In this document: piece by piece, positions 6,297-50,083 of the stretch
How the letters are laid out: every line of letters begins with the position of its first letter
Numbering within the stretch: the stretch's first letter is position 1
NCBI GenBank assembly: GCA_037042915.1
Contig: CM073202.1
Span: 1,054,001-1,118,000 of the forward strand
Direction: 5' to 3'
Length of the DNA: 64,000 nucleotides
Source of the DNA: Auricularia sp. M13
Lineage: Eukaryota > Basidiomycota > Agaricomycetes > Auriculariales > Auriculariaceae
Notes under the pieces: model-generated
Told to the model about the DNA's origin: nothing
Databases searched by the model: none
The model's input: only the letters and a program-made list of their open reading frames with translations
Position numbers and translations under genes: made by a program

Positions 6297-6327
<31 letters not shown>

Positions 6328-6651: not shown

Positions 6652-6698
6652 CGGGCAGTTCCCCACGGGCATCTAGGGCCAACTGCGTCAAGCCCAAG

Positions 6699-9044: not shown

Positions 9045-9143
9045 CAGCTCCCCAGCATAGACTCAGCCGTTCCTTCCGCGACGCCGACCTCCATTGTTCT
9101 CGTGGTCCTTGTTTCGAAAGTAAGTGCGCCATTCGTGTCGCGC

Positions 9144-13865: not shown

Positions 13866-13870
13866 CTTAC

Positions 13871-14505
13871 AGGGCCGCGTCTACGTCCGTGCGGATGGCG
13901 GGGGTACTGTCCTTGGCCGGCACGATGAATTCGGGAGGCCCTCGAATTCGCTCGCCATCTCTTGGAAGTCGCGACAAAGGATCTACGTTCGAGTGTAGTC
14001 TGCCCGCTCTGTGCACGACCTCCAGCTTCGAGAACGCCGAGAATACTGCCCCCCAGGCCGCGAGACGCCGGTTCGTGTTTTCCCAGGTTTTTGCCCATTG
14101 CAGCGCTGCGTGGTCCGTGATCAGGATGATATGCTTGCCTTCGATGAAAGGTTGGAATTTGATTAACGCTTCTTTCACAGCTAATCCTTCTCGCTCGGTC
14201 GCCGAATAATTCCTTTCCGCGTCCTTGAAGGTCCTGCTCCAGTAGCATATGACGCGTTCAACGTGGACTTCAGTGTCCTCGAAGGATTCTGCCCAAGCTC
14301 CAGGAGCCGGTACGTTGTTCACCTTAGACGACATTTTCGTGCAGAGCTGAGGAACGTCCTCACCAGCAGCGTGTGCTTTTCGCAGCCTCTCGTACACCGG
14401 CGTACCCGTCAGGTCGCGAACTTGGATCGGCTGGATTTGCTGCAAACAGGCCCCCAGCGCTTCGTCCGACGCGTCGGTGTACAGGCGATACGAGCGGTGT
14501 CGAAT
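13871..14505 (-). pseudogene. RNase H region of element B
   Basis: Contains RLYTDASDEALGACLQQ, CYWSRTFKDAERNYSATERE and ILITDHAALQWA, the RNase H blocks that follow reverse transcriptase in Ty3/gypsy pol. It is cut from its upstream partner at 32411 by element K. Part of a fossil element. Confidence 0.88.
14498..14505. other. target-site duplication of element K, left copy (TGTCGAAT)
   Basis: TGTCGAAT abuts the left end of K and is repeated at 32411-32418. The flanking protein-level context of B agrees with a simple 8-bp duplication. Eight base pairs is, to my knowledge, the size reported for Zisupton-type transposons. Confidence 0.93.
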
Positions 14506-15221
14506 CACCTCATACAGATGCACGGGTCTGACGCTAACCCTATTTTTCCCCTCGAAAAAAAAGCCTAGCGTCAGACCCGCAGGCGCATGCGCGGTGGTTG
14601 CTGGCCTGTTTATGGCCGTGCGGTTGGTACTGCGGTCCGGTGTGCGTGTCTGTTGGATATGGTGCACTTCGCATTGCGGGTGCTTGTATGGTACTGCGGC
14701 TTTGTTTGCGGGTGCATGAATGGAATTGCGGTTGGGTTTGCGGGTGCCTAGATGGCCGCGCGGTCTGGCCTGCGGGTGCTCGAATGCACCTGCCGTCGTG
14801 CCTGCGGGTGCTCGAATGCACCTGCGGTCCGGGCTGCGGGTGCTCGAATGCACCTGCGGTCGTGCCTGCGGGTGCGCGAATGCACCTGCGGTCCGGGCTG
14901 CGGGTCCTCCGGCGCCATCGTTCGGCACATCCTGGTACCGTCCGGAATGGTGCCGCCGCCGCCATTGCCGTCGGCAATCGCCGCTGCCGCCACCCGGAAC
15001 CCGCCGCCGCTGCCGCCGCCGGCGGTCGTCACCGGCGCTTAAAATTCAAAAGTTTTTATTTCGTCAAAATCAACAATAATTAATGATAGATGCATATCGC
15101 GAAGGAGTATTGGTCAATGCAGTACACCGCAAATGTACACTAGAAAATGAGTTTAGATGAAGCGCACACGCAGCGCGCCGCAGTCGCAGTCGCAGCCGCA
15201 ACCGCAGTCGCACCATCAGAC
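14506..15221 (+). repeat. left terminal inverted repeat of K with subterminal repeats
   Basis: Pairs with 31672-32410 in inverted orientation. From the outside inward it shows: an end of CACCTCATACAGATGCAC; a hairpin made of GGGTCTGACGCTA (about 14523) and its inverse TAGCGTCAGACCC (about 14567); about 0.35 kb of roughly 32-bp units, each with a near-palindrome GGTGCTCGAATGCACC and a TGCGGTCCGGGCTGCGG spacer; a GC-rich CCGCCG block; then an AT-rich stretch (15040-15150). The repeated near-palindromes are likely transposase binding sites (inference). Confidence 0.9.
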
Positions 15222-16426
15222 GTCGAATTGTTCGTGGAGACTACGACTGCGCCTACGGCTGCGACTGCGACAGCGGCTATATGTCAAATATTGCACCGCG
15301 TTGCTAAGCAGAAGGAACATCGCAACTCGCCTCGACAAAGACCTTTTTTTTTTTTTGCTTTCTGTGACACACACAACACACTGCTTGCTTGTTCTGCTTT
15401 ATTTTGTCCACACAACGCGCCCACCATGCAAGCTATATGACAGCTGAATAGCTTTCAACACCATCACCAATCGAAACAACCCTGCGCCAGACGTGTATTG
15501 TTTCGATTGGTGAAGACAGTCGTGCGGCCGCGGCTGCGATTGCGTCTGCGCCTGCGTCAAACGTCGTGCGGCTGCGACTGCGACCGCGCTTGCGCCTGCA
15601 CCTGCGGTGTGCTGGCTTGTTAATTCTACTCCCAATCGCGCCGACCGTGCATGCTGTCTGACTGTACATGCTGTCTGACTACTGAATAGTTTTTCACATC
15701 ATCACCAATCGAAACAACACTGAGCCAGACGTGAATTGATTCGATTGGTGATGAAGACCGGCGTGCGGCTGCGGCTGCGACGTTTCTTAATTCAACACAC
15801 AATCGCGCCGACCGTGCATGCTGTCGGACTACTGAATTGTTTTCAACACCATCACCAATCGAAACAACCCTGAGGCAGACGTGAATTGTTTTGATTGGTG
15901 ATGAAGACAGTCGTACGGCCGCGGCTGCGATTGCGTCTGCGCCTGCGTCAAACGTCGTGCGGCTGCGGCTGCGGCTGTGACCGCGCCTGCACCTGCGTCT
16001 GCTTTGTGTTGGCTTGTTAATTCTACTCCCAATCGCGCCGACCGTGCATGCTGTCTGACTGTGCATGCTGTCTGACTACTGAATAGTTTTTCACATCATC
16101 ACCAATCGAAACAGCACTGAGCCAGACGTGAATTGTTTCGATTGGTGATGAAGACCGGCGTGCGGCTGCGGCTGCGACATTTCTTAATTCAACACACAAT
16201 CGTGCATTCTGTCTGACTGCTGAATAGTATTCCAATTAAATGACGCACTCTCATGATCACCAAACGAAACATCAGAACTCGCGCGGTTGCGGTTGCGGTT
16301 GCGCCTGTGCCCGCGGCTGCACCTGCGACTGCAGATGCATTCCAAGTTACTTGTCGGATCACACTTTGTGGTTGCAGCAAACAACATTTAGCATTTACGA
16401 GGCAGAGAGTGACAAAATGCGATCTG
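15222..16426. repeat. subterminal tandem-repeat block of K with hairpins
   Basis: Non-coding. Between about 15430 and 16210 a unit of 150-250 bp recurs. Each unit holds an inverted pair CACCAATCGAAAC / GTTTCGATTGGTG separated by about 20-25 bases (starts near 15465, 15703, 15853 and 16100), a CTGCGN hexamer run, and the phrase CAATCGCGCCGACCGTGCATGCTGTCTGACT. Open frames across it are artefacts of the hexamers. The companion gene's stop lies at its right edge. Confidence 0.75.
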
Positions 16427-19400
16427 CTACATGAGGGAAGCAAGGAACATGTTGAGCATCTCAGGAGTCTTCTCGACGTTCTTCGGCCAGACCCTGCAGC
16501 AGTGCTTGAGGAGGACCTTGTCGACGTCGGTCAGCGCGGAGCCCTCGAGCGCGCTGCGGATGGCCGCCGTGTACGCATTGACATCCGGCAAGCCGGCTGG
16601 CACCTGCATGCCAGTCGGCCATCCCTTCTCGGGCTTGATGAGGCCTGCACTCAGCACGGCGACGTCCCTGCCCCACCGCCGCGCGTCCTTGATGGTCGGC
16701 GGCTTGAACGAGACCGTCGTGTTGCCGCGCGTAGACTTGCGCTGTGGCGCATCGTCGTCGCCAGTGTCCTCAGCACTGCGCTTGCGCTTGCGAGAGGGGT
16801 CAGCGGCGGCCGGTGACGAGGACACAGGGCTCGACGCTTTGCCGCCGCGCGTGCTGGACTCGGCGACGTCCGGCTCTGCCGCACGCTTCTTCGCGGCTGC
16901 AGTTGCGGTTGCGGGCGCGGGCGCGGGTGCGGGTGCGGACTCGCGCTCGGGCGTGGCTGCAGGCGCAGGCGCAGGCGCGGCCGCAGGCGCAGGCGCAGCA
17001 TCCTTGGTCTTGCGCTTCTTGGGCTGTGGCCGCAGTTAGGGACGCGCAATGTAACAAATGAGAATGCGTACCTTTTCTGCCTGCCCGTCGCCAGACGCAG
17101 CGGCGAACAAAACCGCCTTGCGTTTCGTCTTCCTCATCGGGGCCTCCGAGCGCGCCGTGTTGGGGGGTGGGTCGACTTCCTCCTCCTCGTACTCGATCTC
17201 CTCCTCCTCTTCCTGCTGCTCCTCCGCTTTGCGCTTCTTGGCCTTGGCCGCGGACGCGCGACGCTCCTTGAGAGCCTTTGACGCTGCAGCGACGCTCTTG
17301 CGCGGCGAGCTGCGCGTCGTAGGCGTAGCCTCCGTTTCAGCTGTGGGATCGTCAATTTCGACGTACCGATCCACCATTGCCTTCCTGCGCAGCTCACGTT
17401 GCTTGTTCGCCTCGCTCGCAGCCGCAAGCTCCTCCTTCGACTTTCCAGTCGTGGTCGCGACCTTGCCGGACTTGGTGGCCTTCTTGGTCGTGCTGCCAAC
17501 CTCGGTGATTGGCGCCAGCGTTGACTCGTCGCCCGAGTTGACCGTCTCGCGCGTCTTGCGTTTACCCTTGTTTGGCGCGGGCGCGGTGTGAGCAGCCCGG
17601 GAGCATTAGTCGGGCCGCTCCCACCGTAGGATACACAAGGCATGTATTGGTCCCGTTGTCATACATTGGTTGCCTCCCGCCGTCGTGCACCTCCCGCCGC
17701 GAGTCCCGCCGACTCCTCTCGTTGGGCTAGCCGCCCTCACGTGGTGATCACCGTGTGATTTGAGTGCTCATAGCCTCGAGTCCCCGTCTCCAAGGCCGTC
17801 GACGTGCTGCCTGCCTGTTCCGGTGCATCACCGGAACCCATTGCCCACTACCAGCCGCCGGAGGACTTCCGCACGCAGCTACACTTCCCGGCACCTTCCC
17901 AACACCCAAAAGCATCCCCAGCCTCGCCCTGTGACTGCAGATTGCAGTCCTCATCGTTTTTAGGCCGTGCCAACCTCGGTCCGAACCAGATTGCATCCCG
18001 ACGCCATTCACTCCCCCACTCCTCCTACCCTCCTCTTATTTCTTCAGTGGTACTTTCATATACTATTTCGTCCTGTGGAGCACTTGCCCACATTTATTCG
18101 ATTTATTCTGCCCTTTCCGTAGTGCATTCCCATGGTTCCATTCACCGCTTCTACGTCGCCGTCGTCTGCACCGCAAAGCGCTTCCAGGGCTCAGACTTTC
18201 TTTCCGGTGCACCCAGCGGCTTTGGCAGTGCGCGCAGAGGCCACTGGGCATCCTTCCTGGGCGGACGAGGTTGCGCTTGCGCTTCCTGACTCTCTTGCAC
18301 GCAACGTCAGCTGCCTGCATGTCAAAGGTGCTTACGCCTGGCGGAGTATTGGCCGCCGCAAGCGCCGAGCCGTTCCTCGACATGGCAGGCAGTCAGCACC
18401 AGGGCAACATCAATTCGACCTTGCGGCGCAGTACAGTGCAGCTCAGCAGCAGGATTCGGAGCTTCGGGAGGCAGTCTGGGACGCCCTCGGCGCACTTTAC
18501 ATCAACATCGTCACCCACTCTGGCACTCCGTGCGCCACGCCTCGTGCCGCTGCCAGTGCCCCTACAGTCTACCTGCCAGCGCTGCGCACCGACTCTGCTG
18601 CCACCATCCGGGAGATCGTCACATGTGTTCACCTTGCCGACCTCCTTACTACTCCGAGGGAGTTCAGCGCGCAGGAGCAGAAGGCAGAGCGCGTTGCCAT
18701 CCGCGACCACTTCCTGCACCTTTCTTATGCGGACCGCCGCATGATGCAGCTCATGCACTCGTTACTCGTGCCAGACAGCAGCGCGTGGGATCAAGGCCGG
18801 GTTGATTTCTTTTTTGACCAGTACTTGTATGGTCTGGTGTCATGGGTGCGTGGTCTGGGATGAGACGGCGGCCATTGACACGCCCGGAGGGGTGTCCTCT
18901 TTTGGGGGGGAACCTGTGAGCGGCCCGGGAGCATTAGTCGGGCCGCTCCCACCGTAGGATACACAAGGCATGTATTGGTCCCGTTGTCATACATTGGTTG
19001 CCTCCCGCCGTCGTGCACCTCCCGCCGCGAGTCCCGCCGACTCCTCTCGTTGGGCTAGCCGCCCTCAGCGGGTGCGGGCGCGGGTGCGGGTGCGGGCGCG
19101 GGCGCAGGCGCAGGCGCGGGTGGGGTCGGATTTGCAGGTTCTGCCGCTGCATCGGATGCGCGCGCAGTGGCGCGCGCAGCTGTTGGCTCAGGGCCGACGC
19201 GGAGGACCTGCGGCGTCGGCTCCTTTGGTCCCTTGTAAGGGTTGTTGGGCGGCGGGGTCTTGACTGCAGCCGGCACATAGTCCATGAGCTCGTGATGAGG
19301 GATGCCGAGCACCATCTTGTCGTTGAGCATGACGCGGTAGGTGCCAGCCCAGGACGGTTTGCCGACACCGGCGGGGTATGCCTCACTGAGGTAGATGACA

Positions 19401-22400
19401 TACAGGTTGCTCAACAGGGGCTGGCCCCGAGCAACACGGACCTTGTCGAGCGCGTCGCCTTCGACCTCAATCGCAGGCCGGGTCCAGAGCTTGCCGCAGA
19501 GCACCGCAAAGAGGAGAAGCCTCTGCATGCCGATGCCCAGCGACTTGAAGTTGCTGCGCTTCTTCATGTCGCCGACGAAATAGCAATACGGTGGCCAGCC
19601 ACCCAGCATCATGCGGTGCTGGACGAGCGCGCCCGTCATCGCAGCGAGTGGGACGGCTTCCTTTGATTGCTCGGTGAAAGTGAAAACTGAAAACTACGTC
19701 AGCATGTCTGAGCGCAGGCGCAGGCGCAGGCGCAGGCGCAGGCGGCGCGATCGCAGTCGCAGACGCAAGAGTACTCACAGTCGAACAGGTCCAGAAGCTT
19801 CTTGCGCGCCAGTGACGTTTCCTCCGCAGTGAGGTTGATCGCGAAGCCGAGGTAGTCGCTATACAGCGGCGTATAGTCGAAGACGATCTTTGTCATCTGC
19901 GAGGTGTTGGTCCTCCGAGTCCACACCACCACCTTGTCGGCCGGCACAGACTGATCAGCCTCGACGTATTCGACGATGGGCGGCGTGTAGTTGGTGATCA
20001 CCACCTCGTCGTCCTCTTGACCCACCGGCGCTGTACCATCCCGTGCAGGGGTGGGGGCAGGCACAGGCGTAGGAGGCGCACCCGCAGGCGCAGACGCACC
20101 CGCAGCCGCAGACGCACCCGCATGCGCAGACGCACCCGCAGCCGCAGACGAGCCTGAGCCGGATGCCTGGCCTGGCTTGTGCCCATATCCAACCGCACCA
20201 GGTCGGGGCCGCACTGCAATATAAAATTGGTCGGGCGTGGGCTGAGGAGGCGGGACTGTGCCAGTCTCGCTGTTGCGCTGCGCAGGGGGCTGAATGCCGC
20301 GTGCAATGGCATTCATGTCCGTTACCATGTTGAGATGGCTATTCCTACAAATCGTGTTTCTCGTTAGCACGCGGAATCTTACAGATATCGTGAGACTTAC
20401 TGGACATGACCCTGGAACTTGACCAAGGCTGCGGCGGGCTCCTCAAGCAGCTTGTGCTGGAGGAAGTCCCGCGCGTTGTGGGTTGCGTGGAACCTCGACA
20501 TCGATGGGTCGCGGTCGAAGTCGATGCGCGAGCCCGAGAGAAAGATTGCCGAGTCGAAGTGGTAGAACGCGGCGATGTATTCGAGCTGTAGCGCAAAAAA
20601 GTCAGCAGTGTACGAGAACCTCAAGCGCAGCCGCGGGCGCAGGCGCAGGCGCAACCGCAGGCGCAGGCGCATCGTGCACTCACGAGCCGGATGACGTTGT
20701 CCGCCTGGACTTGGAAGAGATTGTGGCGGTCGGTGGGCGTACCATTCTCGGGGCCGTATGGGTACACAATCTCGTGACGGATGAGTAGGTCGTCGACCTG
20801 CTCATCCGTCAACTTAGCGGACCAAGTGTCGTACAGCGCCTTGTAATCTTCGGCGCTGTACTTGCTGCGATTCCTGAGGATATCGTCGAACTTCCGCCGC
20901 TCGATGCATTCTGCAAGAACGTCAGTGTGCAACACTAGGGAAAGAACTGAACAAAGGGGAAAAAAAACGAACCCTTGTGCGTGTTGCGGCAGAACCTCTT
21001 GAACAGCTCGAGCCTGCTGATTTGGCGCGGCTTTTGCAGAATGCCAATGAGGGCGCGGAGGCGCTCCGAGGCGATGCCGAGGCTGGCAGAGGCCAGCGTG
21101 ATAATTTGGCCAAAGAACGAGGCCATCATGTTCATGGCGCGGCCCTGGTGCGCTGTTGGACGCCCTCGCCCGAGCTCGTGCTGCTTCTGGGCCTCGCGGC
21201 GCAGAGTAGCCATGAGGGCCTTGTAGTTCTTGTGCACCTCTTCCTGGGTCATACCTCGGGGTGCAGCGGAGAACATCTCCGCCATCTCCTGCTCCTCGAG
21301 CTCGCGGAGAGCGTCCTCGTCAATGGGATCGGGGTCGAGGTCGAGGTCGTCGGGGATGTCGAAAGGCTCGGCGGCGCAAGCAGCAGGAGAAGGGCTCGCG
21401 CCAAAGAAGATCGCTGCGCCCGCGGCTGCCGCCGCGGCTACGTCTGCGGTTGCGGCTTGCTGCGCTCCGGCCTCTGTGCTGCGCCGGCGCTGCGCCCTCT
21501 GCGCTGCGGCGACCGCAAGACGGCCGCCGAGTGCTCCTGTAGCAGCCTCGTGGGCGACGCGAACGTCCGCCATTGCGGACTGCTGGGAGGCCTTGTCCAT
21601 GTTCATCGCGTCGTTAAACTCGGCCTCCAGCTCCGCCCGTATTGCGTCGGCCTCCGCAGCATCGTCGGTGGTGTCCGCGTGGTCGACTTGGGTGGCCTTG
21701 AGGGTGTTGTCGTCGTCGGCGATGTCCTCCACTGTCGCCTTGAACTTGTTGGCGGCGCTTCCTTCTGCCACCAACGCGTCCGAGACCCGGCCTTCGTCTT
21801 CACTCTCGGTGCCATCGTCGTCGTCAGCTTCGCCGAGCGCGGCTGCGAGGGAGCGCTTTGGCCACGGGCGTGCGCCCTGGGTCTCGGTGAAGGGTGCCGG
21901 TGCTGTGACGGGCCCACCCAACGATACGGGCGCGCGCGCAGGCGCAGCCGTGAGCGATGCGGCCCGCTCAGGCGCGGACACACGTCGGCTGCTGCTTGCT
22001 GCTGCCTTGGGCTTGGACACCTTGGCCGCCGCGGCCTTGGGAAGCGCCGGCTTGGGCTTCATGGGCTTGCTGACCTTTGGCTTGGGCGTCGGCGAGCCTG
22101 GTGATGTCGGCGCGGTGGGCGCAGTGGGAGTGGCGGGCGTGGTGGGCATGGCAGACTTGGGCGCGGGCGCGGGCGCGGGCGCGGCTGCGGCTGCGGCTGC
22201 GGGCGGGCTGCTGTTATCGAAGCCTGGCACTCCCGCCGTCCTCAGAGCGACGAATGTCGGTGGGTAGGGCGGCGCGGGATCCTCTGAGAGCTCCTGCGCA
22301 TAGAGCTGGTGCAGCTTGAGATGCAGCAGCAGTGCGGGACCCTCCAAGTTGCGGACGGCCTTCGGAATCTTCGGCTCCAAGGTATTTTTTATGAAGGTCA

Positions 22401-23545
22401 TGTCCTTCACATCGTCCTCGTCGTTATCGGGATGCGGGACCCTGCTGGCCGCATACATCAAGCGCCTGGCGGCGTAGGTGTCGATTTTGTGGATCTTGGC
22501 CACCAGGTCCCGGTACCCATTCCAGGGCAATAGAGTCTATACATCCTGTCAGTAATGATCTTGAATGAACACAGGCTGTACTTACCACATCGGCGAGCTG
22601 AGATTCCTCGTCGGTCGTGACGGCGTCATCGGGATCCGCCTGAGCAACAAGTCAGCCACAAAAGCAAATGAAACGGTCAGATTTAACTGACCTGCTCAGA
22701 AGGCGGCGAGGTTGGGGGCGGTGTCTCGAACCTGTAGCTCTCGTCGCGCGAGTGCTGCCCAAACCAGAGCGCCGTGCTCGCGGCCGTGAACTGGGCCTCG
22801 TATTCGTCACCCGGGGCCTCGCTGTCGCTCGTGAGCCCGTAGTAGCTCTCGAGCTCGTCCTCGTCGTCGGCCTCTTTGTCGGCCTCCTCGTCGGCCTCCT
22901 CGGGGGCGTTGGGCGACGGCTGGTAGTCATCGCCCGAGTCGTCGGCCTTGCTGGTGGCGCTCTCCTCGTTGTTGTCGCCCGCGGCGCCCACCTCGTCTGC
23001 CTTGCTGATGACGCTGCTAGCGTCCTCCTCCCCCGCGCTGCTTGCGTCGTCGTCGTTTGCGTTGCCCGCGTTGTCCGCGACTTCGCCCGCGACTTCGCCC
23101 GCGTCGTCGCCCGCGACAACGACGCTGGCCTCTTCGTCGTCCGCGCTATCAGGGGCGGCCACGTTGCCCGTGTCGCCCGCCTTGCTCGCCTCGTCGTCGC
23201 CGTCCGCATTGCTGGCCTCATCCGCCTTGCTGGCCTCTTCGTCGTCGTCCGCCTTGCTGGCCTCTTCGTCGTCGTCCGCCTTGCTGGCCTCTTCGTCGTC
23301 GTCCACCTTGCTGGCCTCGTCGTCGTCATCCGCCTTGCTGGCGGCATTCTCGTTGTCGCTGCTGCCGTCCGCTGTGTACGCTCCGCGCTGCGAGACATTG
23401 TCAGTCAGCGCCCTTGCACACTGCTGGCCTAGCGTACCTTTTCTGCCTGCACGTCAGGCGCTGCTATGGGCGCGGCTGTGGGCGCTGCGGCGGGTGCTGC
23501 GATTGCTGCTGCGGCTGCCCCTTGTCGCGTACGACGTGGTGGCAT
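16427..23545 (-). CDS. large companion gene of K, function unknown (about 1,708 codons, split by element T)
   Basis: Exon segments that keep phase: 23545-23438, 23387-22692, 22639-22586, 22536-20973, 20910-20684, 20585-20401, 20344-19779, 19686-19068, 17582-17072, 17023-16427. Introns are GT-AG. The start is the ATG of MPPRRTRQG, right after a possible 5'UTR intron. The product has an Ala/Pro-rich start, a long acidic repeat region (DDDEEASKA units), a segment starting LLPWNGYRDLVAKI, then Ala/Pro and acidic linkers. A folded-looking region follows (DRHNLFQVQADNVIRL, FLSGSRIDFDRD, GALVQHRMMLGGWPPYCYF), and a basic C-terminal third with nuclear-localisation-like clusters (KKRKTK, RKRKRS). I do not recognise a family. 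A nuclear protein travelling with the transposase is the best inference. Element T interrupts the eighth exon; with one copy of its 4-bp flank removed the frame is continuous, so T appears to be the only lesion. Confidence 0.75.
17587..17739 (+). repeat. left LTR of element T
   Basis: 153 bp, identical to 18915-19067 except for about one base (GAGCAGCC versus GAGCGGCC). Confidence 0.9.
18132..18863 (+). CDS. gag-like ORF of element T, 243 residues
   Basis: The only sizeable frame of T on its sense strand. It has a Ser/Ala/Pro-rich N-terminus and then an alpha-helical-looking body (EQKAERVAIRDHFLHLSYADRR). There is no zinc knuckle, protease or polymerase motif. It is called gag-like from its place between LTRs, not from a domain match. 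Confidence 0.5.
   Translation: MVPFTASTSPSSAPQSASRAQTFFPVHPAALAVRAEATGHPSWADEVALALPDSLARNVSCLHVKGAYAWRSIGRRKRRAVPRHGRQSAPGQHQFDLAAQYSAAQQQDSELREAVWDALGALYINIVTHSGTPCATPRAAASAPTVYLPALRTDSAATIREIVTCVHLADLLTTPREFSAQEQKAERVAIRDHFLHLSYADRRMMQLMHSLLVPDSSAWDQGRVDFFFDQYLYGLVSWVRGLG
18915..19067 (+). repeat. right LTR of element T
   Basis: Second copy of the 153-bp terminal repeat. It follows the polypurine tract and is followed by GCGG. Confidence 0.9.
19687..19778 (-). repeat. intron of the companion gene carrying a CTGCGN hexamer array
   Basis: Intron GTGAGTAC...TTTTCAG of 92 nt. Right after the donor it holds about ten tandem hexamers of the type TGCGCC or TGCGAC. Plain introns of the same gene are about 50 nt, so the array accounts for the extra length. 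Confidence 0.8.
20586..20683 (-). repeat. intron of the companion gene carrying a CTGCGN hexamer array
   Basis: Intron GTGAGTGC...GCTACAG of 98 nt with about eight hexamers (CTGCGC, TTGCGC) starting a few bases after the donor. Confidence 0.8.
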
Positions 23546-25789
23546 CCTGCAGACCTTGTCAGCGTCTCGGCGACCGAGCACACGGCCAGGCGTACCTGGC
23601 TGGACGGGCGTGGGGTCGGGGGTGCGCGTGTAGGATTTTGGGAAAGCGGATCAAGAGCCGGGAGCGGACTTTGATTTCGCGCGGCTCCGTGTACTTCCTC
23701 GTCGACAAACGCCTCCAAAGGCTGAAATTGAGTTCTCACACGCTTTGAGCACGTGTCTAATACATCTGAGTCACTTCACATTCCGTAATTAGAATTTATA
23801 TTGGATGGATTTATCCCTACGAGCTTTGTTATAGCGGTTCGGGACCGCGACTGACTCCTTCCGTCGCAATAAGGCTGTACCAACGCCATTACATGGCTGG
23901 ATATGTGTGAATCAAAGTTCACGAGCTATTTCCAGAGTCTCATAGCCGTTGCGACTGCGCCTGCTGCTGCGTATGCGACTGCGTCTCCTACTCACTGTGC
24001 TGCCGTCGTATACATGTGCACTGTGAAGCATCCAGAGCACTGAGACTTGCCTCAAAATGTCTCAAAAGCCTTTACTGGGATTACCTGGACCTGAAATGCG
24101 TGGCTTAATGGTTAAATCATGCTGTGCTCCGTGTGTTCATGCGATGAACTCGAAGAATGTTGAACCACTTCTCCTCCACACACCAGGCAACCTTGTGCCT
24201 CTCGTCCCTTACATTCACCGTGACTAAGCTTTTCCAGCACAGAAGGGTCAGTGTGAGACGTCACTGGGAGTTTGCTCTTCGCAGAAACGCAGTGGTTGAG
24301 CGAGTTCCGGTCTGGAACTCCTTTGACCAGGGTAGATCAGTTATTGCACACGCAATGGCGAAGCCTCTTGATAGTATTTACGCAGGATCGTGGGATCCAC
24401 ACTGCTATAATGATAGGAATGAGCTGAGTTGACGAAGGCTTCACTGCACAGAGCTATGGCGAGTGATTTCCTTGGGGGAACTGGTTTGACTGTGGCAAAC
24501 AACATCTGCTGCAACACACAACACAGTCTCCTTTTCTCGTCTCAATTGCAGTCTATCTTTGCGTTGGATATCTAACCTATGCTGAGACACAGCTGAATGG
24601 TCAAAGGCGGCACTGGCTGCTCGAGAACTCGAGTTGCATTGCTGTAATCCGGGCGTCCTTCACCCGAGTGACTGAAACCAATGTGAACTATCAAACACAC
24701 GCGTCTCGAAGTGCCCCACCGCCTGTAGAGATTAACAAAACCCTTTTAATGAATCTCACCACGCGAGTCAAGAATTGCACATGACATTGGGGCAGTAATC
24801 ACATTTGTGCTGGCGGACAGTAAAGAACGGTCAGATTAACAAGAAATGTACATGGACTAATAGGACTACATTTGACTCTAATCGCTGTGAACTAATTGGA
24901 TTACCTTCAGACTCTAATCCACTGCTAGTTCACTAGGCTCAACTGTTGATCTATCTGCGCGTGCAGGCGCACAACTGCGTCAGGATTAGACTTATTAGAC
25001 TTGCAACTGCGACTGAGATTACATTTACGAATAGCACTATTACTGTTTGCTAATGAGACTACATTTGCGAATGCGAGTGCGAATGCGAATGCGTCTGTGT
25101 AGTGATTTGAATTGCGAATACTATTAGTTTGCTAATGAGACTACATTTGCGAATGCGAGTGCGAATGCGTTGTGATTAGACTTGCGAATGCTACTGAGTT
25201 TGCGTTCTGATTAGACCGAATGCTAATGCGGTTGTGTTGTGAGTAGTCCTGCAAATGCTAATAGGTCTGTGTTGAGATTAGTCCTGCGAATGCTAATGCG
25301 TTGGCCAAGATCAGATTTGTAAGTGCTAATCCTATTTCATTGCATTCTTCTGTGCGATTCTAACGCGGTTTTCGCCGGTTAACTCTTCTCTTTTCTTAGG
25401 GCCGTGCTCTGCGTTCCTCTCTCGCTTTTTGCCGCGGTTTGCGCCGCGCTGCATTTCGACTTGTCGGACGGCTCTGGCCGAATGATTTGTTCGTCTCTGA
25501 ATGCGGTTTCTTCCGCAAATGTCCATTCGGCCTCCTGTGTCCCCTCAACAGCCCTTGCAACCATTTATCCAGCCTAGCGTTGATCTAAATAGGTCCCTGA
25601 AGGATTTTAAAATTTTACTTAAATTTCAAAATGGCACATGTGGCAGCGATCACGTCGAATGTGTTTTTTAAAAAAAGTCAGGTGACGGATCAAGTGATGT
25701 TGCGGGTGCATCTGCGGCTGCGGGTGCGGCCGCGGCCGCGAAGGCGCTCTTGCTACAACTGGAGTTTCCCTCTGAGGCCGGTGTCCGAA
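23546..25789. other. intergenic block of K between the companion gene and the transposase gene
   Basis: AT-richer than the genes and without a supported coding region. It presumably includes the promoter of the companion gene (upstream of 23545). A GTACGCC...CTGCAG stretch at about 23547-23600 looks like a 5'UTR intron. From about 24960 to 25330 there is an irregular array of GCGAATGCGAGT-like words alternating with TTAGACTTGCGAATGCTA-type words. Another CTGCGN/TGCGGG tract lies at 25695-25745. Confidence 0.5.
24960..25330. repeat. degenerate CGAATG-type tandem array
   Basis: Words GCGAATGC, GCGAGTGC and GATTAGACTTGCGAATGCTAAT recur about a dozen times in direct orientation with varying spacing. 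No coding potential. Confidence 0.55.
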
Positions 25790-26600
25790 TTACATGTGGT
25801 TAACATTGAAATCTACTACAGGAGGAATATGTTTACAAACAAGTTCATACAGGAAAATGCGATACAGTGGAATATTAATTTCAGTCAGGCCGGTTGTCCG
25901 CCACTGCCGGACTATAGCTGCAACGGTTGCCAGCACCCAGAGACCGCTATCAACAAGTCCATTGACCTGATGCGGCTCTGTTGGAGACACGAGGCTTCGC
26001 ACCACCCAGCGTGCGGGAGGCGTGCACACATTTCGCGATGGCATGGATTTTGCGCATCCAAGCAGGCCAGTGATAAATTGACCCACGCACTGGAATTCTC
26101 GTAAGTTTATGCACATGTAGGACAGTGCTGCGCACCTCGCCATGGATCTTCCAGCGATCGTTGTTGCCCAGGCTATCGTAGAAGTCGATCTTGCAGGCTC
26201 GAGGGTAAACAGCGGCCAGCATCCAGTCATAGTTCTTGAATATGGGTACCAGTATGACCTCCTTCCGCCAAAATGCAGTGCATTCAACTTGCTTGAACGC
26301 CGAGTACGCTCGCTCGTTTCCAACCAGAGCGTGTAGTCGCGTGGTTGAAATACTGCAACGCGGTCGGAAGCCCCGCCACCGAACTCAGTGAAGAGGGCCT
26401 TTGTAGCTGCATAGATTGCCTCAGCGGAGAGGACACCTGGCACTCGAAGCGAGGTGAGCGATGCACAGCTGATATCGACACGCGCAAAACCGGACTCAGG
26501 CGCGTGCGACCGCGGTTGCGGCTGCGGCTGCGGCTGCGCCGGTACGAAGTCTCGAAGCTTTTGCCCGAGGCTTGAGTCGATGTGTGTCGCCTTTATCTAT
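25790..26600 (-). CDS. Ulp1-like (C48 peptidase) C-terminal region, probably catalytically dead, likely joined to the KDZ transposase
   Basis: Two blocks match Ulp1/SUMO-protease cores: FWRKEVILVPIFKNYDW followed by KIDFYDSLGNNDRW, and HQVNGLVDSGLWVLATVAAI followed by TGLTEINIPLYR. In active Ulp1 proteases the first block ends in HW (catalytic His) and the second reads NxxDCGxWV (catalytic Cys). Here they read DW and DSG, so both catalytic residues are replaced while the Asp in FYDSL is kept. The blocks lie in different frames, consistent with at least one short intron. Just upstream, the last transposase exon ends in a GTAAGT donor (about 26656) instead of a stop. This suggests one transcript encoding a transposase-Ulp1 fusion, with a hexamer-bearing intron near 26486-26545. 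A separate pseudogene is the alternative. Confidence 0.65.
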
Positions 26601-26640
26601 TTACCGCCATTAGTATTAGAGATATTCCGCATTAGGCCGT

Positions 26641-29600
26641 CTAGATACCACTTACAGCCTTATAAGCCGAAAATTCCACCGAAGGAGCGATGCCAAGCTC
26701 GTAGTCGGCCACACCAGCAGAATGGTCGAGAAACGGATCATCGTCATCGCTTAATATGCCGTCGTCTTCGTTGTCGTCGTCGTCAACCTCCCGTTCAGAC
26801 TCGACGTCCTCATCGTCCGCATTCTCGGCACCGTGGTGACGTCTGTGATGTGGCGTTGTCGGCGGTGTTGAGAGCCCAAGATCCTGCGGGCGCGTATTGT
26901 GTCTCAGTGGAAGTTCCAGTCGCATTGGACCAAAGGACAACGTTCCAACATTTTGGCGAGGTGCTTGACCAACGGAGAAGCCGTCGACGGGCTGGAGTTT
27001 GGTGGTGTGCCTGCGGGTGTGCGGGTGCGGGTGCGTCTGCGCCCGCGGGTGCTACTGCGGGTGCGGCCGCCATTGCCTCCACTGCGGCGATTGGTGTCCA
27101 TGTGACTTCCACCCACCGCGCGAACGGAATGTTCAGCTTCTTGCAACCCTGGGCAAGATCTTCCAGACGAGCGTACTCCCGCCTTAATAGGGTCACGTAA
27201 AGAGCGTCTTGCGGTGTGTCAGTAAAGTCTGAGATAGAATGAAAACCCGACGCACTGCTGGGGTTCATAATAGCCGAGGCAATAGCCTTGGCCTCAAGTG
27301 TCAGCCAGTTGAAAAGCTGATTCTCCTCGCGAAGTAGGCGCTCCCTCTCCGCAGTGCAACGATCAAGAGCAAGCTGTGCCCGGATCGCAACACGGACAGT
27401 CGAGTCTGTCAACCACAGACCGCTTCCAGAGGGCAGCGTAGACACCCAGACATCCTCAAGCAGCATTGAGTTGTCGCTCTTGAGCTTCGAAATGTCGGTC
27501 GGCAGCTCCTGGGGAAGGGGGGAACGTGCGGCCTGCAGGTAGGAGCTGTCGCACGCGAGCGCAGAGATCGTTGTAACGGACAATCGCATTGTGAACTGCG
27601 GGAGTACGGCGATTAATCGAAGACCGGACCTTCTGATGCTGCTTGGTGCCTGCAAAGACAGCAGGACGTTAGAACATATGATCTAAGCAAGCCAGGGGCT
27701 CACCGAGTGGCTCGCCAGCACCACCAGCAGCCTGATCCAGGGTCTCGTACTCGAAGAAACGTCCGGTAATCTTGCGGCGCGCAATGCACTTGGCATCGTA
27801 GCACATGATCAAGGCACGCACAAAGTCCACACCCAGTTCCTGAATATCGGGGAACTCCTGCTCCACGTTGAGCGAAGCATACAGCGCCTCTGCCTGCCGC
27901 GTGAGGTCTGCCAATGTTGTCCGAAGCTCGTCCAAGTGTGCGTTGGGAGATGCCGAGGGCACAGCGGTGCTGCGGTCAACAGCAGCCTGCGCAACAGCAA
28001 TGGCCTCCTCTACTGAATCAATCTGGTCTTGAAGTGCCATGACCGCCTCCAGCTCCTTGCGCAACCGGGGTGTTCGAGCTGGAACAGTTTCAGCTCAGTT
28101 GAGAAAGAAAAGTCAAACGCAGGCGCGTTCGCAGGCGCACCCGCAGGCGCAACCAAACTTACTGCGTCGCACAGCCAATTGTGCTTCGCGTTGCTCTCGC
28201 CACTGCGCACGCAGAAATTCTGCAGAGCGGCCGGACGCCTTAATGTCCTCCGTCGCCTCTCCTTCGCGAGTCTTGACTGCTTTCCACTTGCGTTGCAGCC
28301 ACAGGCCTGAGTCGTCACGGATGGCCCTGCTGACCCATTGAATTTGACGATCGAGAGTGATTATGCGTCCTTGGCGCTATAGCGTGTTATTATAGTGCAG
28401 AAAGAAGAATTGCAAGACTTACCCAAGCACTACGCAAGTTGTTGATTAGCCCCCGGAGCCGTGACCACAGTCGTTCAACACCTTCGCCATCGGAAAGGCC
28501 GAAGCCTGGATTCATTCGCGGACTGTACACTATCTGACACTCCCATTGGTGAGCATACGAGTGCATCGAGCTTGTGGCAAAAACGACCAGAGACTCCATC
28601 AGGGGAGTCAAGACGGCATACTGGGGCGCAATCAGCCCAAGTCGCAATTGCAGGCGCAGTCGCAGCCGCAGCCGCATTTGCAGCTGCAGCCGCAGCCGCA
28701 GCCTCAACAGTACTCACCGCCAGAACCGTCTTGTGCTGCACACAGCCGATGTCGTACAGGTTCAGAATGGTTGCCAGCGAGGGCAGATGAAGCTTGGTCC
28801 AGATAAACAGTGCAAGTGCGTACTTCATCTGCTCTCCCGGTGTGTCGATGTTGCAGAGGTAGAGTGGAACGTCATGTCGACAGACCATGGCCATCAGGCC
28901 GCGATCGTCGTGCTTCTCCCCGCCAGCCTTGATTCTCGAGCCATCCGCAGCGGTATGAGAGCTTTCGCATTGCTTTACAGCGCTTGCAGGCACCTCAGTT
29001 TTGTACTTGCGAGCTGGGCGCTTCCTGGCTTCGTCGTGAGCGGCACCAACGGCATCAACAAAGGCCTTCGGTATAAACGCCTCGGGCATGAACTGAACGT
29101 CTGGGCAGTCGCCTGCTGTCACGTTACGCCGGTAGGAGAAGTTGCCATCGACAGCCAGGTGGAAATCACATCTGTTGAGCGTATGTCACACCGCATGAGC
29201 ATCATCGCAACTCAGGGTGGAGAATCACATACGTAGACAGCGGAAGTCCGATCATGGCCACAGTAAAGCACTTGGCGCAGCGAGACACAAGATAGGGATC
29301 GATGTCGATGCAACCGTCAGGAAACAGGCCGTACTTCGCAGCTTCCGCAATCCAGTAGCGTGCTGGACCCGTCGTAGTGCTGGTAGCCTGTGCTGGACGC
29401 GAGCGAGCCGCGGGATGCGGTGGATGCCATGGCTCGGCGCGCGGAAAGGCGTCCATGTCGAACGCACCGTCCGGGCCATCAGGGAGACGATCCTGGTCCA
29501 TGGCATCTTCATCCGGTACCTCCTCAACGGTCGGAAATGGCACACGGCGTCGCGGATTCCCCGTTGTAGGAGTTGGAGGAGGAGTCACATCGGCCGCACC

Positions 29601-30775
29601 GCAGCCGCACCGCAGCCGCAGCCGCAGCCGCGCCGCAGGTGCTATTGCGGGGTACAGGACGTCCTGCCGACCTCGCACAATGCAGCGTGCTGTTCCAGCA
29701 TCCTGCCTTGCCTGAACAAGCTCGTACCACATAATGGCGTCTGCCAGGGCTTGCCGGAAGCCAGTTCGAATCGGATTTCCCTTCAATTGTGTCAGCGATC
29801 TTAATGTTCACAGACGTAGCCAATACCGCACCTTCTTTGTCCTCAAAATGTATCCATTAGCCCGATGCTGATCGCGCAGAGACGCGCACAACGACTGCAC
29901 GGAGTTGGTGGCATTCCGCATGAGGTCTGAAAATAGACTCAGCAAATCAATACTAAATGCGTATCGAGGATTGCATGGGGCTGATGGAAAAAGGCCCCGC
30001 TCAGCTAGATATATAGCGTAGCACATGTATGTGGCTACATGTCCTAACATCCCGAGTCTCGCAGTCTAACAGAGTGTGTCAAAAAAGACCAAGGTCGGGG
30101 GAAAGAAAGAACATACGCTTCAAGTACACAACATTAACGCGGTGAAGGCGCACGCCGCTCGTGCATGTATCTCCGGGACATCCTGGTAATGTACATTCAT
30201 AAAACGTCTTCCTGCCGAATGATATGCAACATACCTTCGGTGCGCGAGTAAGGTGTGCAGTTACCATTGCGGTTGCAGTTGCGATCGCCGCTGCCACTGC
30301 CGCCCATCGCATCTCCGTAGCTGGAGGTGAGATAGTAGAGGATTGGGTCCCCCAGTTTCGGTAGCAGCTCGTTCCAGTGAAAGAACTTGCGCTCCATGTC
30401 GACGGACGGTGGACCTGCGACGCGCTTGCGCTTCATGGGTGGTGCATAGTCGTAGTCGTCTGCCGGTCCAAATGGAATAAAATCGTCCTGCATCTCCTGA
30501 GGAGCTGCTGGAGCCTGTGGAATGGGAACGGGTGACTCGTGATGAACAGCGGTACGTGCGCGAACGACACCTGGCGCAGGAACTGTCGGTGTAACAAAAA
30601 GCGGTGTCATGTGCTGCTCGCCGCTTTTGCGTCGCTTTGTGAGCTTTTTGAAGGCCTGGGGGAGCCCAAGACCAAGGGACGTCACGGCGCCCACTCTGAC
30701 AGCGGAAATGCGCCGTAGGGCGCCGGACTTTTGGGTTCGCTTTGGAGCGAGCGATGATCCAGGTCTGTTAGACAT
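26641..30775 (-). CDS. KDZ (Kyakuja-Dileera-Zisupton) transposase
   Basis: Start ATG at 30775 (MSNRPGSSLAPKRT). Exons I can place in phase are 30775-30235, 30182-30117, 30043-29832, then from 29780. Later exons end at 29233 and run 29171-28718, 28620-28423, 28376-28163 and 28078-27706. The N-terminal part has a Cys-containing segment (GCPGDTCTSG), perhaps the CxC cluster common in this family, then ERGLFPSAPCNPRYAFSIDLL, FRQALADAIMWYELV and VSRCAKCF. Catalytic blocks follow: LAVDGNF, LMAMVCRHDVPL, YDIGC and LSDGEGVERLWSRLR (acidic triad of the family). The C-terminal part has LLEDVWV and LALDRC and an Asp/Glu-rich tail. Near 27520 a C-run separates two frames: either a one-base slip or a 49-nt intron. 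It acts in the nucleus, cutting and joining K ends. Confidence 0.88.
28079..28162 (-). repeat. transposase intron carrying a hexamer array
   Basis: Intron GTAAGTTT...TGTTCCAG of 84 nt. It has about six CTGCGN-type units (GCGCCTGCGGGTGCGCC) within the first half. Confidence 0.8.
28621..28717 (-). repeat. transposase intron carrying a hexamer array
   Basis: Intron GTGAGTAC...GCGCCCCAG of 97 nt, lying between YDIGC-containing and DGEG-containing exons. About nine CTGCGG/CTGCAG units start ten bases after the donor. Confidence 0.8.
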
Positions 30776-31671
30776 CGTGCGGCGTGGTGGCGGCAGGGTG
30801 GATGAAAAAAATTAACCGGCACTTGCCGCATACTTCCGAGGGTCCGCTGAGCCCCGTCACGTGACACGCACCCTCGGGCGCAATGGACCTAACCGCTGAC
30901 AGCTTACAGGTCCCGTGTGCGGAGGCAGTCGGGTGCAATGAGCAGCAAGTGTAACAAAGACCTTGTATAACAAGACAAGCATTTGTTCCATACTTTCTGC
31001 GTCCAAAAGAGTTCGCATCAATGTATTTATCGTGGATATGTTCATCAGGGTTGCATCGTCGGGAGCATGAAGCCGCGGGTGCGGCTGCGGGCGCGGGTGC
31101 GGCTGCGGGCGTGCCCGCGGATGCGGATCAGCGGCGCGGGCGCGGGTGCGAATGTAGGCACGGACGCTGGTGCTGATGCTGATGCTGATTGGCGTCGCCT
31201 ATATCACTGCAAGCGCGTACATACCGTGAGATGACATAATATGCATGTGGCTCCCTGGACATATTTTTTGAATGTACAACAACGGGCACATCGGCCATTA
31301 CATTACATAATGCAGATATTTGCCCAGAACACAAAGAATCAAGTTTCCGACAGTTCTTGCATACTTTTAATTCGCGTCGACAGTTCTTGCATAGCGCCCG
31401 CCAGAAAACAAAGAATCAAGTTTCCGACAGTTCTTGCATACTTTTAATTCGCGTCGACAGTTCTTGCATAGCGCCCGCCAGAAAACAAAGAATCAAGTTT
31501 CCGACAGTTCTTGCATACTTTTAATTCGCGTCGACAGTTCTTGCATAGCGCCCGCGCCTGTGTGTCCAGTTACCGGAAGTGGTGATCTTACGTGTAGATA
31601 TAGCAAAGGTAATAGAGCAGAAATACTTGCGCGAGAACATGGCAAGAAAGCTTAACATGCAGGATTTGACA
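30776..31671. other. right non-coding flank of K
   Basis: Upstream region of the transposase gene. It holds the presumed promoter, a GCGGGTGCGGCTGCGG tract (31075-31150), a GATGCT trinucleotide-like run near 31170, and three 77-bp tandem repeats. No supported gene. Confidence 0.5.
31332..31559. repeat. three 77-bp direct tandem repeats
   Basis: CAAAGAATCAAGTTTCCGAC recurs at 31332, 31409 and 31486 with near-identical 77-bp periods. Each unit contains CAGTTCTTGCATA twice. Not a gene and not CRISPR. Confidence 0.85.
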
Positions 31672-32410
31672 GTCTGATGGTGCGACTGCGGTTGCGGCTG
31701 CGACTGCGACTGCGACTGCGGACGCTGCGTGTGCGCTTCATCAAAACTGTCATTTTCCAGTGTACATTTGCGGTGTACTGCATTGACCAATACTCCTTCG
31801 CGATATGCATCTATCATTAATTATTGTTGATTTTGACGAAATAAAAACTTTTGAATTTTAAGCGCCTGGTGCCGACCGCCGGCGGCGGGGAAAGCCGGCG
31901 GCGGCAGCGGCGGCGTGGTTCGGTGGCGGCAGCGGCGATTGCCGACGGCAATGGCAGCGGCGGCACCATTCCGGACGGTACCGGGATGTGCCGAACGATG
32001 GCGCCGGAGGACCCGCAGCCCGGACCGCAGGTGCATTCGAGCACCCGCAGCCCGGACCGCAGGTGTATTCGCGCACCCGCAGGCATGACCGCAGGTGCAT
32101 TCGAGTACCCGCAGCCCGGACCGCAATAGGATTCACGTACCCGCAGGCACGACCGCAGGTGCATTCGAGCACCCGCAGGCCAGACCGCAATAGGATTCAC
32201 GTACCCGCAAACCAAACCGCAATAGCATTGCAACACCCGCAAACCAAACCGCAGTACCATACAGCCATCCGCAGACAAGGCCGCAGCACCAACCGCACGG
32301 CCATAAACAGGCCAGCAACCACCGCGCATGCGCCTGCGGGTCTGACGCTAGCCTTTTTTTTCGGGGGGAAAAATAGGGTTAGCGTCAGACCCGTGCATCT
32401 GTATGAGGTG
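31672..32410 (-). repeat. right terminal inverted repeat of K
   Basis: Inverse of 14506-15221: the same AT-rich block, CCGCCG block, 32-bp units with the GTGCATTCGAGCACC near-palindrome, the terminal GGGTCTGACGCTA hairpin and the outer end CTGTATGAGGTG. It is slightly longer than the left copy because the number of 32-bp units differs. Confidence 0.9.
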
Positions 32411-35400
32411 TGTCGAATTGGGTGGCCGAGAACTGGCGCGCTCTGCAGAGCTGTTTTCACCTGCTCGAACGCGTACTGCTCATCTTCTCCCCAGTGCCAG
32501 GCGACGTCCTTGCGTAGAAGTTTGAACAGCGGCGCGACGAGGAACGAGTAGTATGGTATGAACGCTTGAAAGTATACGACCATGCCTAAGAACGTCTGCA
32601 GGGTCGATAATTTCGACGGTGCGTCCAGGGCTGCGATGGCGGCCACTTTCTCGTCGTGCGTCGAGAGTCCCAAACGCGAAACTTTGTGGCCGAGAGGCAG
32701 GATGGATGAGTAGAAGAAGTGACACTTCTTCGGTGATAGGGTGAGTCCTGCTTTCTCCACCGCGGAGAGGACCTTGTCCAGATGCTCAAAATGCTCTCCG
32801 TAGGTGGCCGAGTAGACCACAATGTCGTCAATGTAGACCAGCGTGAATAGCCAGAGGAAAGGAGCGAGTATCCCTTGCATAACTCTTTGGAAGATAGCAG
32901 GCCCGTTGCGCAGTCCAAATGGCATTCGTTTGAACTGGAATAATCCCTTGTGAGTGCGGAAGGCTGTTTTCTCGACGTCCTGCGGCGCTATTTCCATCTG
33001 GTTGAACCCAGCAAGTGCGTCCAAGGACGACAGAACTTGCGAACCAGATAGCGCGGACAGGATATCAGATTGGCGAGGAATAGGGAATTCATCTGCTACC
33101 GTGACCGCGTTCAGCTTCCTGTAGTCCACGCAGAACCGAGGTTTGCCATTGCGGTACACGATGACCACGGGAGCGGCCCAAGGACTGATCGACTCTTCTA
33201 TGACTCCAAGGTGGAACCATTTACGCAACTGGTCCTCGATGACTTCGCGCTTCTCCGGGGAGGCTCCGTGCATGGGTACGGCAATAGGGTCCACTCCTTC
33301 CTTGGTCCTGATTTTCGCGTTTACTTCTAGGTGACCCAGACGATCGTCGAACCCGAACGCTAGGACGTGTTTCCTCAACAACTCCAAGGCTTGATCGCGT
33401 ATATGCGTAGGCAAATCCGGCGACAAGTCCAGAATATTTTCCAAGTCCTTAGAGTCGTACATGATTGGGTCTGGCGCGTCCGCGAGAGCGGGTGGTTCTA
33501 GTTCAGCCAGTTCTTCGGCGCAGGGCGCGCTTCGTCGGGGCGGCAGAGGCTGGCTGGCACCTTCTGCGCCTGCACGGCAGGCGAAAGCCTGAATCTCGAT
33601 TTCCTCCGCCGTTCGCGTGTCCAATTCCGCAATTAAAGCCGCGGTCTTGCTAGCAGAGCTCAAGCAAGCAGCGAGCTCCTTCTCGTTGGCTGGACAGAAA
33701 AGGGATTTCGCGGGGTCCAGAGCGTAGCCCAGTACGGTTCCGGCTCGTAACGTCCACGGGCGAGAAGTAGGATTCGTAACCGGGAGCGCGGATTTGCGCG
33801 CGATCGTGGGCTGTCCCTCGGCGTCCGGTATAGGGTCTGTGCGAGTAGAGAGCAGCGTGTTGGGCACCGACAGGAACGAGTCGTGCCTGATGCTGACCAG
33901 ATTTCGCTCCACATACCACTCCCTGTCCTGCTGGAGGTCACCCGCAACATTGACTAGGGTCGTGGTATTTGGCTGCAGCACGGTATCCTCGAACACGCGC
34001 AGTTCGCCTCGCCCTATCGCCAGCTTGCGGCGCTGTCGGGCGGCACGCGCTCGTCGGTGACTCTTCGCCTTGACGAAGCTGGCAGCGTTCGCTTGTACTA
34101 CTCGGAAAGCTCTTGCTGAAAACGATTGGACTTCGGCAGCCGCGGTGTCTTTGGCTAGCGAGGTGGCCCGAAAAGCGAATCCCGTCTTGCCGACTTCCAC
34201 GCGGGTGCCCAACGTAGCGCTACGCAGCACATTCAACTCGTAGTTCACGTGCCAATCCTCTCCCAGCAGGACCTCCACCGTCATGTCGGGTACGACGTAA
34301 GCTTCAAGTTCGAAGGATAGGGTCGATCCGTCTTCGGCTCGAATGAATACTGGTAGCTTAACGTAGCCCTCGAGATGCGGAGTCTTGCTAGTGAGCTGCG
34401 CGATTTGAACTTTCATTCCCGTTCTTATTTTCGGCGGGTTCTTGAGCGAGTTCAGATAGCTCTTCTGTATAAGCGATAAACTGGCTCCCGAGTCGAGCCT
34501 GAGCGTAACGGGCTTATCTTCTGTAGTACCGATGCGCCCCCGACAAGATAAGACGGATACGCCAGCCGAGGAGAACCCACTCGGCGTGGAACGTCTGATG
34601 GGCATACGCAGTACGCATTCTGATGCTGGGAGCGAAGGGTTGCACACTGGAACGTCGTGTGGAGGAGGACCTGCTTCTAGCGCTATACGCGCTGCTGCAG
34701 CTAACGCTTGTTCGAAGATAGCAGCTTCCAACGACGGGCCGCTAGCGAAGGCTTGGGCGTCCTCGTCGCCTTCGTCATCTGAATCCTCTACTAGCAGGAG
34801 GTCTGGCAGGTCTCCATGCTCCGGACGCTCACGAGGCTCCCGTACTAGAGGCTCCTCCTCCTCTTCGCTGTCGGTATCATCCCCAGGGAGTAACGCGGGC
34901 AGATCTTCCTTGGGTTCTGCCTTAGTCGGAAACGCCGCAGCCCGAATCGGTTCATCGACACGACTGGAATCGAGTTCGACTACCTCCTGTAGTATGCCCG
35001 GGCCAACGAGCTTCGGAGAGTCTCTTTGTGCAATAAAGTCCTCATCTTCCACTTCCTCGACTGACGGAGCGCTAGTAAGGATAGTCGACACGTATGCCCG
35101 AAGCTCCACGGTCGCATCATACGAGGAGAACGCAGATTCATTGGCGTGAACCAGGTAGACAGCATCATACATTTTAGCTTCTTCGGGACCGCGTTCAGAG
35201 GCGTACATGGCGCCTTGATTCTTCCTCATCGCGTAAGAGTGGTAGTGCCCACACTCTTTGTCCCAATGCCAGGCGCTGCCGCAGACCTTGCACGGCGATG
35301 GCGGCTTTCTTTTGCTACGGACATCGCTCAGCGGGAAGGGGTAGCCGTCTTTCGGTGGAGGGCGCTGCTTGCTGCCGGCGAGAAAGGCGTAGACGCAGTT

Positions 35401-37935: not shown

Positions 37936-38003
37936 CCACAGCAGATAAAATTTTCACTATAAGGTCGTTGGCCTTGACAACCAAATCCGGATTCGTCCAC
38001 CTC

Positions 38004-50052: not shown

Positions 50053-50083
<31 letters not shown>

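Follow-up and report, generated by a model that had tools for sequence, protein, structure and literature searches.

The stretch of DNA analysed here, hereafter the window, comprises the 64,000 nucleotides at C10:1054001-1118000 (contig CM073202.1) of Auricularia sp. M13, whose 52.1-Mb genome is assembled in 14 contigs; all of these contigs were included in our genome-wide searches. Positions 14506-32410 of the window are occupied by a 17,905-bp element of the Kyakuja-Dileera-Zisupton (KDZ) kind, which we call W (features given below without a strand were assigned none). This element lies in the pol gene of a Gypsy element, of which the reverse transcriptase part (32419-37953, minus strand; RVT_1 match) and the RNase H part (13867-14497, minus strand; RT_RNaseH match) now stand on opposite flanks. 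At the left border the 8-bp sequence TGTCGAAT (14498-14505) is followed by the element start, CACCTCATACAG, and at the right border the inverse sequence runs into an identical copy of TGTCGAAT (32411-32418). W opens with CACCTCATACAGATGCACGGGTCTGACGCTA and closes with its reverse complement; its ends have the form CACCTCA...TGAGGTG, and the outer 46 bp compared are identical. The Gypsy frame is continuous when one 8-mer is kept at the junction, whereas it is broken when both are kept. Sixteen further matches to the left flank were found in the genome, and in all 10 of those compared at the junction (L051-L060) the Gypsy flanks plus one 8-mer align straight across it. These 10 loci are diverged relatives rather than alleles, with identities of 67-78%; the two best align without gaps, and in the others about 800 bp of alignment contains 4-12 gap openings. 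The element borders are exact, and this empty-site comparison bears out a preliminary description of this DNA in claiming an insertion into Gypsy with borders resolved to the base, an exact 8-bp target duplication, and a host coding context that is restored on removing the element and one 8-mer.

Further copies exist in the same genome, and the numbers given here are lower bounds because only the best candidates were scored. Searching with the 28-bp end of W, allowing up to three mismatches, located six places, three per strand, which correspond to three complete elements; the reversed 28-bp end, used as a control, had no match in the genome. The first subfamily thus contains W, C1:8642124-8659423 (17,300 bp) and C10:155678-161874 (6,197 bp). 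Members of a sister subfamily start with CACCTCAGG(T/C)AGCTGCAACC; three of them are large, one on C11 (15,819 bp) and two on C7 (16,976 and 18,329 bp), and three are smaller, on C10 (6,403 bp), C2 (6,473 bp) and C8 (3,875 bp). The large copies other than W are named C1, C11, C7a and C7b after their contigs. Exact 8-bp duplications flank all nine delimited elements, W and the eight found by the genome search, and the nine 8-mers are all different, with no common motif evident by eye; mispaired flanks, used as controls, gave none in 72 combinations. A tenth related locus (C2, at about 3.03 Mb) showed one end only within the 9.5 kb of sequence taken.

The long inverted ends and subterminal arrays noted earlier are both present. 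The terminal inverted repeats of W (left, 14506-15228, plus strand; right, 31664-32410, minus strand) align over 751 columns at 86.3% identity, with 35-60 identical columns in each full tile of 60, and are composite, consisting of a 57-bp palindrome, an array of 32-bp repeats and an inner, nearly identical segment. The palindromes lie at 14523-14579, with 14-bp arms CGGGTCTGACGCTA, and at 32337-32393. Folding of the outer 95 nucleotides of the left end (14506-14600) gave a z-score of -6.0, and none of 200 shuffled sequences was equally stable. The inner segments (15034-15150, plus strand, and 31750-31866, minus strand) are 99% identical, and the arrays (14674-14909, plus strand, and 32007-32285, minus strand; period 32 bp) are where the two ends of W diverge most, with 35-51 of 60 columns identical in the four tiles that span columns 121-360. 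When periods of 7-139 were compared, 32 bp ranked first at 15 of the 18 ends of the nine elements; the exceptions are both ends of C1, which are best at 64, and one end of the 6,403-bp element, at which 44 is followed by 32. Inside the five large elements, 32 bp is the best period in none of 139 tiles. The array unit itself is unlike between the two subfamilies, while the 32-bp spacing is kept in both, as would be expected if the phasing of a bound protein matters. GGTGC-N6-GCACC dyads were considered as binding sites within the repeats and rejected, being present in W and C1 and in none of the other seven elements.

The transposase gene (25790-30775, minus strand), which was placed by aligning the two subfamilies, has 11 exons separated by GT-AG introns. 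Its product of approximately 1,450 residues comprises a putative CxC1-like cysteine cluster, a KDZ domain, an acidic stretch and an Ulp1-like C-terminus. In the read-through protein the KDZ transposase domain (PF18758) has an E-value of 2.5e-43 and scores 148.7 bits, against a cut-off of 26.6, and a single open reading frame (ORF) of W taken on its own still scores 78 bits. The RNase-H-like core of this domain is encoded by exons 5 and 6 (28423-29171, minus strand) and keeps its D, D and E motifs: AVDGNF, YDIGCV and GEGVERLW of W fall on near-invariant columns of 12 homologues, and we take the D, D and E within them to be the catalytic residues. A KDZ transposase inside the element, as was first suspected, is supported. 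Among 8,000 candidates scored, 44 homologous proteins, mostly Agaricomycete, passed an E-value threshold of 1e-3, the best being a protein of Auricularia subglabra with 60% identity over the aligned part. Exon 9 includes a 48-nucleotide GT...AG stretch that is probably an additional intron; C11, C7a and C7b have a stop in frame there, W and C1 none.

A second gene lies in two pieces. Its upstream piece (19055-22536, minus strand) has five exons with 1,058 codons open, and its downstream piece (16427-17572, minus strand) has two exons and closes at a conserved stop. This gene is conserved between the two subfamilies, and its protein is likely to be an accessory one. No Pfam family was found in the pieces scanned. 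A protein search found no relatives among the 8,000 word-richest candidates, which low-complexity words may have filled, and a search with the non-repetitive core as the query had 1,810 word-sharing candidates, none of which passed. Within the genome this core occurs in the five large elements and in a fragment at C11:291647-292718, which has 93-99% identity and lies outside any delimited element found. Four of the 15 introns that were placed hold GC-rich tracts and are 84-98 nucleotides long, the other 11 measuring 46-62. Such tracts, TGCGGC-like tandem repeats of 6, 12 or 18 bp, are scattered over W in exons and flanks as well as these four introns (sites include 16893-16998, 19068-19126, 20077-20150, 22159-22211, 27020-27070, 28640-28703 and 31074-31150), and the tandem-repeat listing of the window contains none outside the element.

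W is a recent copy, as had been proposed. Its transposase region differs from that of C1, its closest copy, by 24 substitutions in 5,469 aligned sites plus 16 insertions or deletions, and long BLAST alignments over W are 96.7-98.3% identical with insertions and deletions included. Eleven of the 24 substitutions could be assigned to W and 10 to C1, three being unassignable; CpG transitions (decay at 5-methylcytosine) make up four of the 11 and two of the 10, too few for such decay to be claimed as the main source of the differences. The expectation of a complete-looking element with all its genes did not survive, however. An insertion of the long terminal repeat type (17587-19067; 1,481 bp, with direct repeats TGTGAGC...CCCTCA of about 153 bp), missing from C1, interrupts the second gene of W, and the transposase frame of W is broken four times, with one break in exon 3, two in exon 9 and one in exon 10. 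W is therefore neither a specimen with all its genes working nor a complete autonomous copy; from its sequence we regard it as young but not intact. In this assembly, alignment and exon lengths give C1, C11, C7a and C7b at least one transposase frame break of their own each, and exon 1 of C7b carries, in addition, an insertion of roughly 1.7 kb.

The C-terminal tail of the transposase, an Ulp1/SENP-like domain encoded by exons 10 and 11 (25790-26596, minus strand), matches the C48 domain (PF02902) in C1 with 26.4 bits, against a cut-off of 20.7. Its catalytic Asp and Gln are kept (D41 and Q95 of the query, on invariant columns among 12 homologues), and its catalytic His and Cys have become Asp and Ser: in all five large copies the H-W motif has Asp in front of its Trp, and D-C-G reads D-S-G. 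Among the 44 homologues, all 21 with a recognisable Q...D-C-G/R stretch have Cys, and of the 24 in which an xW stretch can be recognised, 22 carry His before the Trp, one Tyr and one Gln. Seven proteins with no recognisable xW stretch and no listed Ulp1 domain (P0022, P0032, P0033, P0035, P0036, P0038 and P0041) were left out of the 21, and two of these read N-S-G in the pattern search. Between the subfamilies the domain has 0.17 nonsynonymous (dN) and 1.23 synonymous (dS) substitutions per site, a ratio of 0.14, for C1 against both C11 and C7a. The corresponding ratios, against C11 and C7a respectively, are 0.05 and 0.13 for exons 5-6, 0.16 and 0.28 for exon 1, 0.20 and 0.21 for exon 4, and 0.88 and 1.12 for exon 8, frame-broken sequence entering the C7a values of exons 1 and 5-6 and both values of exon 8. 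By sequence, SENP2 and SENP1 have the closest solved structures (best E-value 0.0011, for SENP2), and in the two best structure alignments the solved chain itself reads DSG at the Cys position. These chains are presumably mutants in which Ser was put in place of Cys so that the substrate stays bound; the change of Cys to Ser is a laboratory means of trapping SUMO substrates.

The loss of His and Cys is common to both subfamilies and so predates their split. With dS at 1.23 and dN at 0.17 since then, and with exons 10-11 open in C1, C11 and C7a, it is unlikely that the tail is a decaying relic whose catalytic residues were lost for want of selection, even though two catalytic residues are gone, frame breaks occur in W and the other copies, and the sister copies carry a stop upstream of the tail unless the 48-nucleotide intron is assumed. 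Less likely still is a tail that remains enzymatic, with Ser as the nucleophile or with another substrate. The retained active-site Asp and Gln, and a similarity to SENP2 that spans the active-site region, would suit such an enzyme; the His that activates the nucleophile, however, is Asp in five of five large copies, and in the homologues with the stretches named above Ser is never found at the Cys position (0 of 21) and His is the rule before Trp (22 of 24). The tail is most likely a pseudo-protease, maintained as a binding module rather than a protease, and SUMO or SUMO conjugates are plausibly what it binds. It is possible, and we propose it tentatively and at less than even odds, that in this KDZ clade a SUMO-protease tail has turned, through loss of its catalytic His and Cys, into a SUMO reader, which would keep the transposition complex at SUMOylated host proteins, for example at repair or silencing foci, rather than cleave SUMO from them.

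Three of the smaller elements, of 6.2-6.5 kb, are large palindromes with the same ends as the large elements. The 6,197-bp element is self-complementary from end to end, at 91.6%; in the 6,403- and 6,473-bp elements the arms measure 1,870 bp (97.8%) and 1,899 bp (99.2%), with an additional self-complementary middle at about 75%. The latter two are 96.6% identical to one another, and the 6,197-bp element is 77% identical to them in the middle. Palindrome ends track the large subfamily to which they belong, with 81% identity to W over 387 bp and 78-79% to C7a over 336 bp. Leaving aside the outer 900 bp of these palindromes, the longest ORF has 206 amino acids; two of the listed ORFs of at least 100 amino acids, those of 111 and 206, were scanned, and no Pfam family was found in these two. 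Of the transposase gene, the 3,875-bp element on C8 retains no more than the first part. Eight loci of about 0.4 kb, at C2:3556218, C4:101038, C5:80189, C6:3680777, C7:3280077, C9:743419, C10:2439407 and C11:1102942, have inverted arms of 70-75 bp that resemble the middle of the 6.2-kb palindromic element.

The whole is best explained by taking W to be a KDZ DNA transposon with inverted repeats and 8-bp target duplications, the 17.9-kb KDZ transposon of the preliminary description, and we put the probability of this explanation, the steps that we infer included, at about 0.87. The sequences show that W entered the Gypsy pol gene as a single unit bounded by its two ends and duplicated 8 bp there. 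The encoded KDZ transposase would recognise the terminal palindrome together with the 32-bp-phased subterminal array, make target cuts staggered by 8 bp, and move the element by a cut-and-paste reaction. A period of 32 bp is close to three helical turns, so that the bound proteins would lie on one face of the DNA. The second protein would serve as an accessory and the tail as a binding module that is no longer a protease, and the palindromic elements, whose ends match and in which no gene was recognised, would depend on mobilisation in trans. Since W is young but not intact, its own movement would need proteins from another copy.

An 8-bp duplication alone is no mark of a superfamily, and that of hAT elements is usually 8 bp as well (PMC12730594, available text), so that the mobile unit might belong to hAT or another such superfamily and carry the KDZ gene as cargo. 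This is very improbable: no other transposase was recognised by Pfam in the 18 stop-to-stop ORFs and three spliced pieces scanned, a part of all ORFs, and the KDZ gene is the longest of the stretches conserved between the subfamilies and among the best conserved. That the repeats and the duplication arose by segmental duplication or recombination, with no transposition at all, might be entertained in a window full of nested repeats, including a 5-kb inverted copy at 97.8%. Nine loci with like ends and nine different exact 8-mers, and Gypsy relatives that run uninterrupted through the site, leave this account with almost no credit.

Several points weigh against the transposon reading as put forward here, or against parts of it. 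The CxC1 match (E-value 7.6e-6) scores 26.5 bits, just under the cut-off of 26.9, and one frame break lies within the stretch. If the 48-nucleotide stretch of exon 9 is not an intron, C11, C7a and C7b would be without the tail in the same protein. A frame break in each large copy leaves present activity unproven, and these breaks may be either assembly errors in repeats or real decay. With 16 insertions or deletions, a high share of them of 1 bp, against 24 substitutions between W and C1, assembly error could account for the breaks; weighing against it, the Gypsy ORF is open over 1,918 codons and the second gene over its 1,058 codons up to the insertion. Binding of the 32-bp repeats, mobilisation in trans and binding of SUMO are, moreover, inferred steps. 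One genome offers a KDZ family whose ends are resolved, and which includes two subfamilies, a deletion derivative and palindromic partners; this makes end recognition and movement in trans testable on defined substrates.

The surrounding region is a nest of repeats. A 5-kb inverted duplication occupies 4107-9117 and 47264-52295 at 97.8% identity, and more repeats of 0.1-4 kb are found in the window. Within the Gypsy element a stretch of about 450 bp, which looks like a small nested insertion, contains CCTAA pentamer repeats at 13476-13686 (TTAGG on the opposite strand), with 21 CCTAA counted in 13441-13860; we take this repeat to resemble the arthropod-type telomere unit.

W shares with other fungal KDZ elements the KDZ domain and possibly, at a borderline score, a cysteine cluster of the CxC type. 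It differs from them in having terminal repeats that measure about 720-750 bp and contain 32-bp arrays, a second gene for which no relatives were detected, an Ulp1-like tail that lacks the catalytic His and Cys, and no TET/JBP match, as none of the 19 matches to the TET/JBP dioxygenase listed for the genome lies inside the element (C10:1068506-1086410). Four of these 19 are over the cut-off, and KDZ-domain matches, with exon pieces counted singly, number at least 149 in the genome, which by these sequence matches has undergone a strong KDZ expansion.

Target duplications of KDZ elements are given as 7 bp in Kyakuja and 8 bp in Zisupton and Dileera in the available text of PMC12730594, in which W resembles Zisupton in having terminal inverted repeats with 8-bp duplications and Dileera in having 8-bp duplications. 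By its duplications and inverted repeats, W would accordingly fit the Zisupton/Dileera type. Kyakuja-1_LB and Kyakuja-2_LB of Laccaria bicolor are, like W, Agaricomycete KDZ elements with CA..TG termini, whereas their duplications are of 7 bp, they lack terminal inverted repeats and they carry a TET/JBP gene (PMC12730594, same text); with its 8-bp duplications and repeats of more than 700 bp, W does not fit the Kyakuja type as described. The preliminary description had also held that few KDZ elements are easy to delimit. This is only partly true, as Cryptococcus elements of 9-11 kb with terminal repeats (139-241 bp) and 4-8 bp duplications have already been described (PMC12810828, available text). 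Cryptococcus KDZ1, KDZ2 and KDZ3 are basidiomycete KDZ elements with inverted ends, as W is, and KDZ1, the movement of which was observed, has 8-bp duplications like W; all three are about half the size of W with shorter repeats, and the available text of PMC12810828 makes no mention of Ulp1.

The order of KDZ followed by Ulp1 is found in Agaricomycete fusion proteins as well, such as AURDEDRAFT_67410 of Auricularia subglabra (60% identity), but the catalytic His and Cys are kept in both Auricularia subglabra homologues that were aligned. No description of a KDZ-Ulp1 fusion was found in the literature searched, although public Pfam annotations do show it. The transposases of Ginger1 and Mutator elements are not known to be related to that of KDZ. 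Ulp1 domains recur on transposon proteins of Ginger1, where they are C-terminal, and of Mutator elements, and an active role in transposition has been proposed for them (PMC2836005, available text). There they are presented as protease domains, unlike the tail of W (PMC2836005, same text). In a tail that has lost the catalytic residues while its sequence is conserved, binding is set apart from cleavage, which makes the question of such an active role a testable one. The kind of element, KDZ, is a known one, and W is a variant worth following for its probable pseudo-protease tail, the most promising point, as well as for its phased ends and its palindromic partners.

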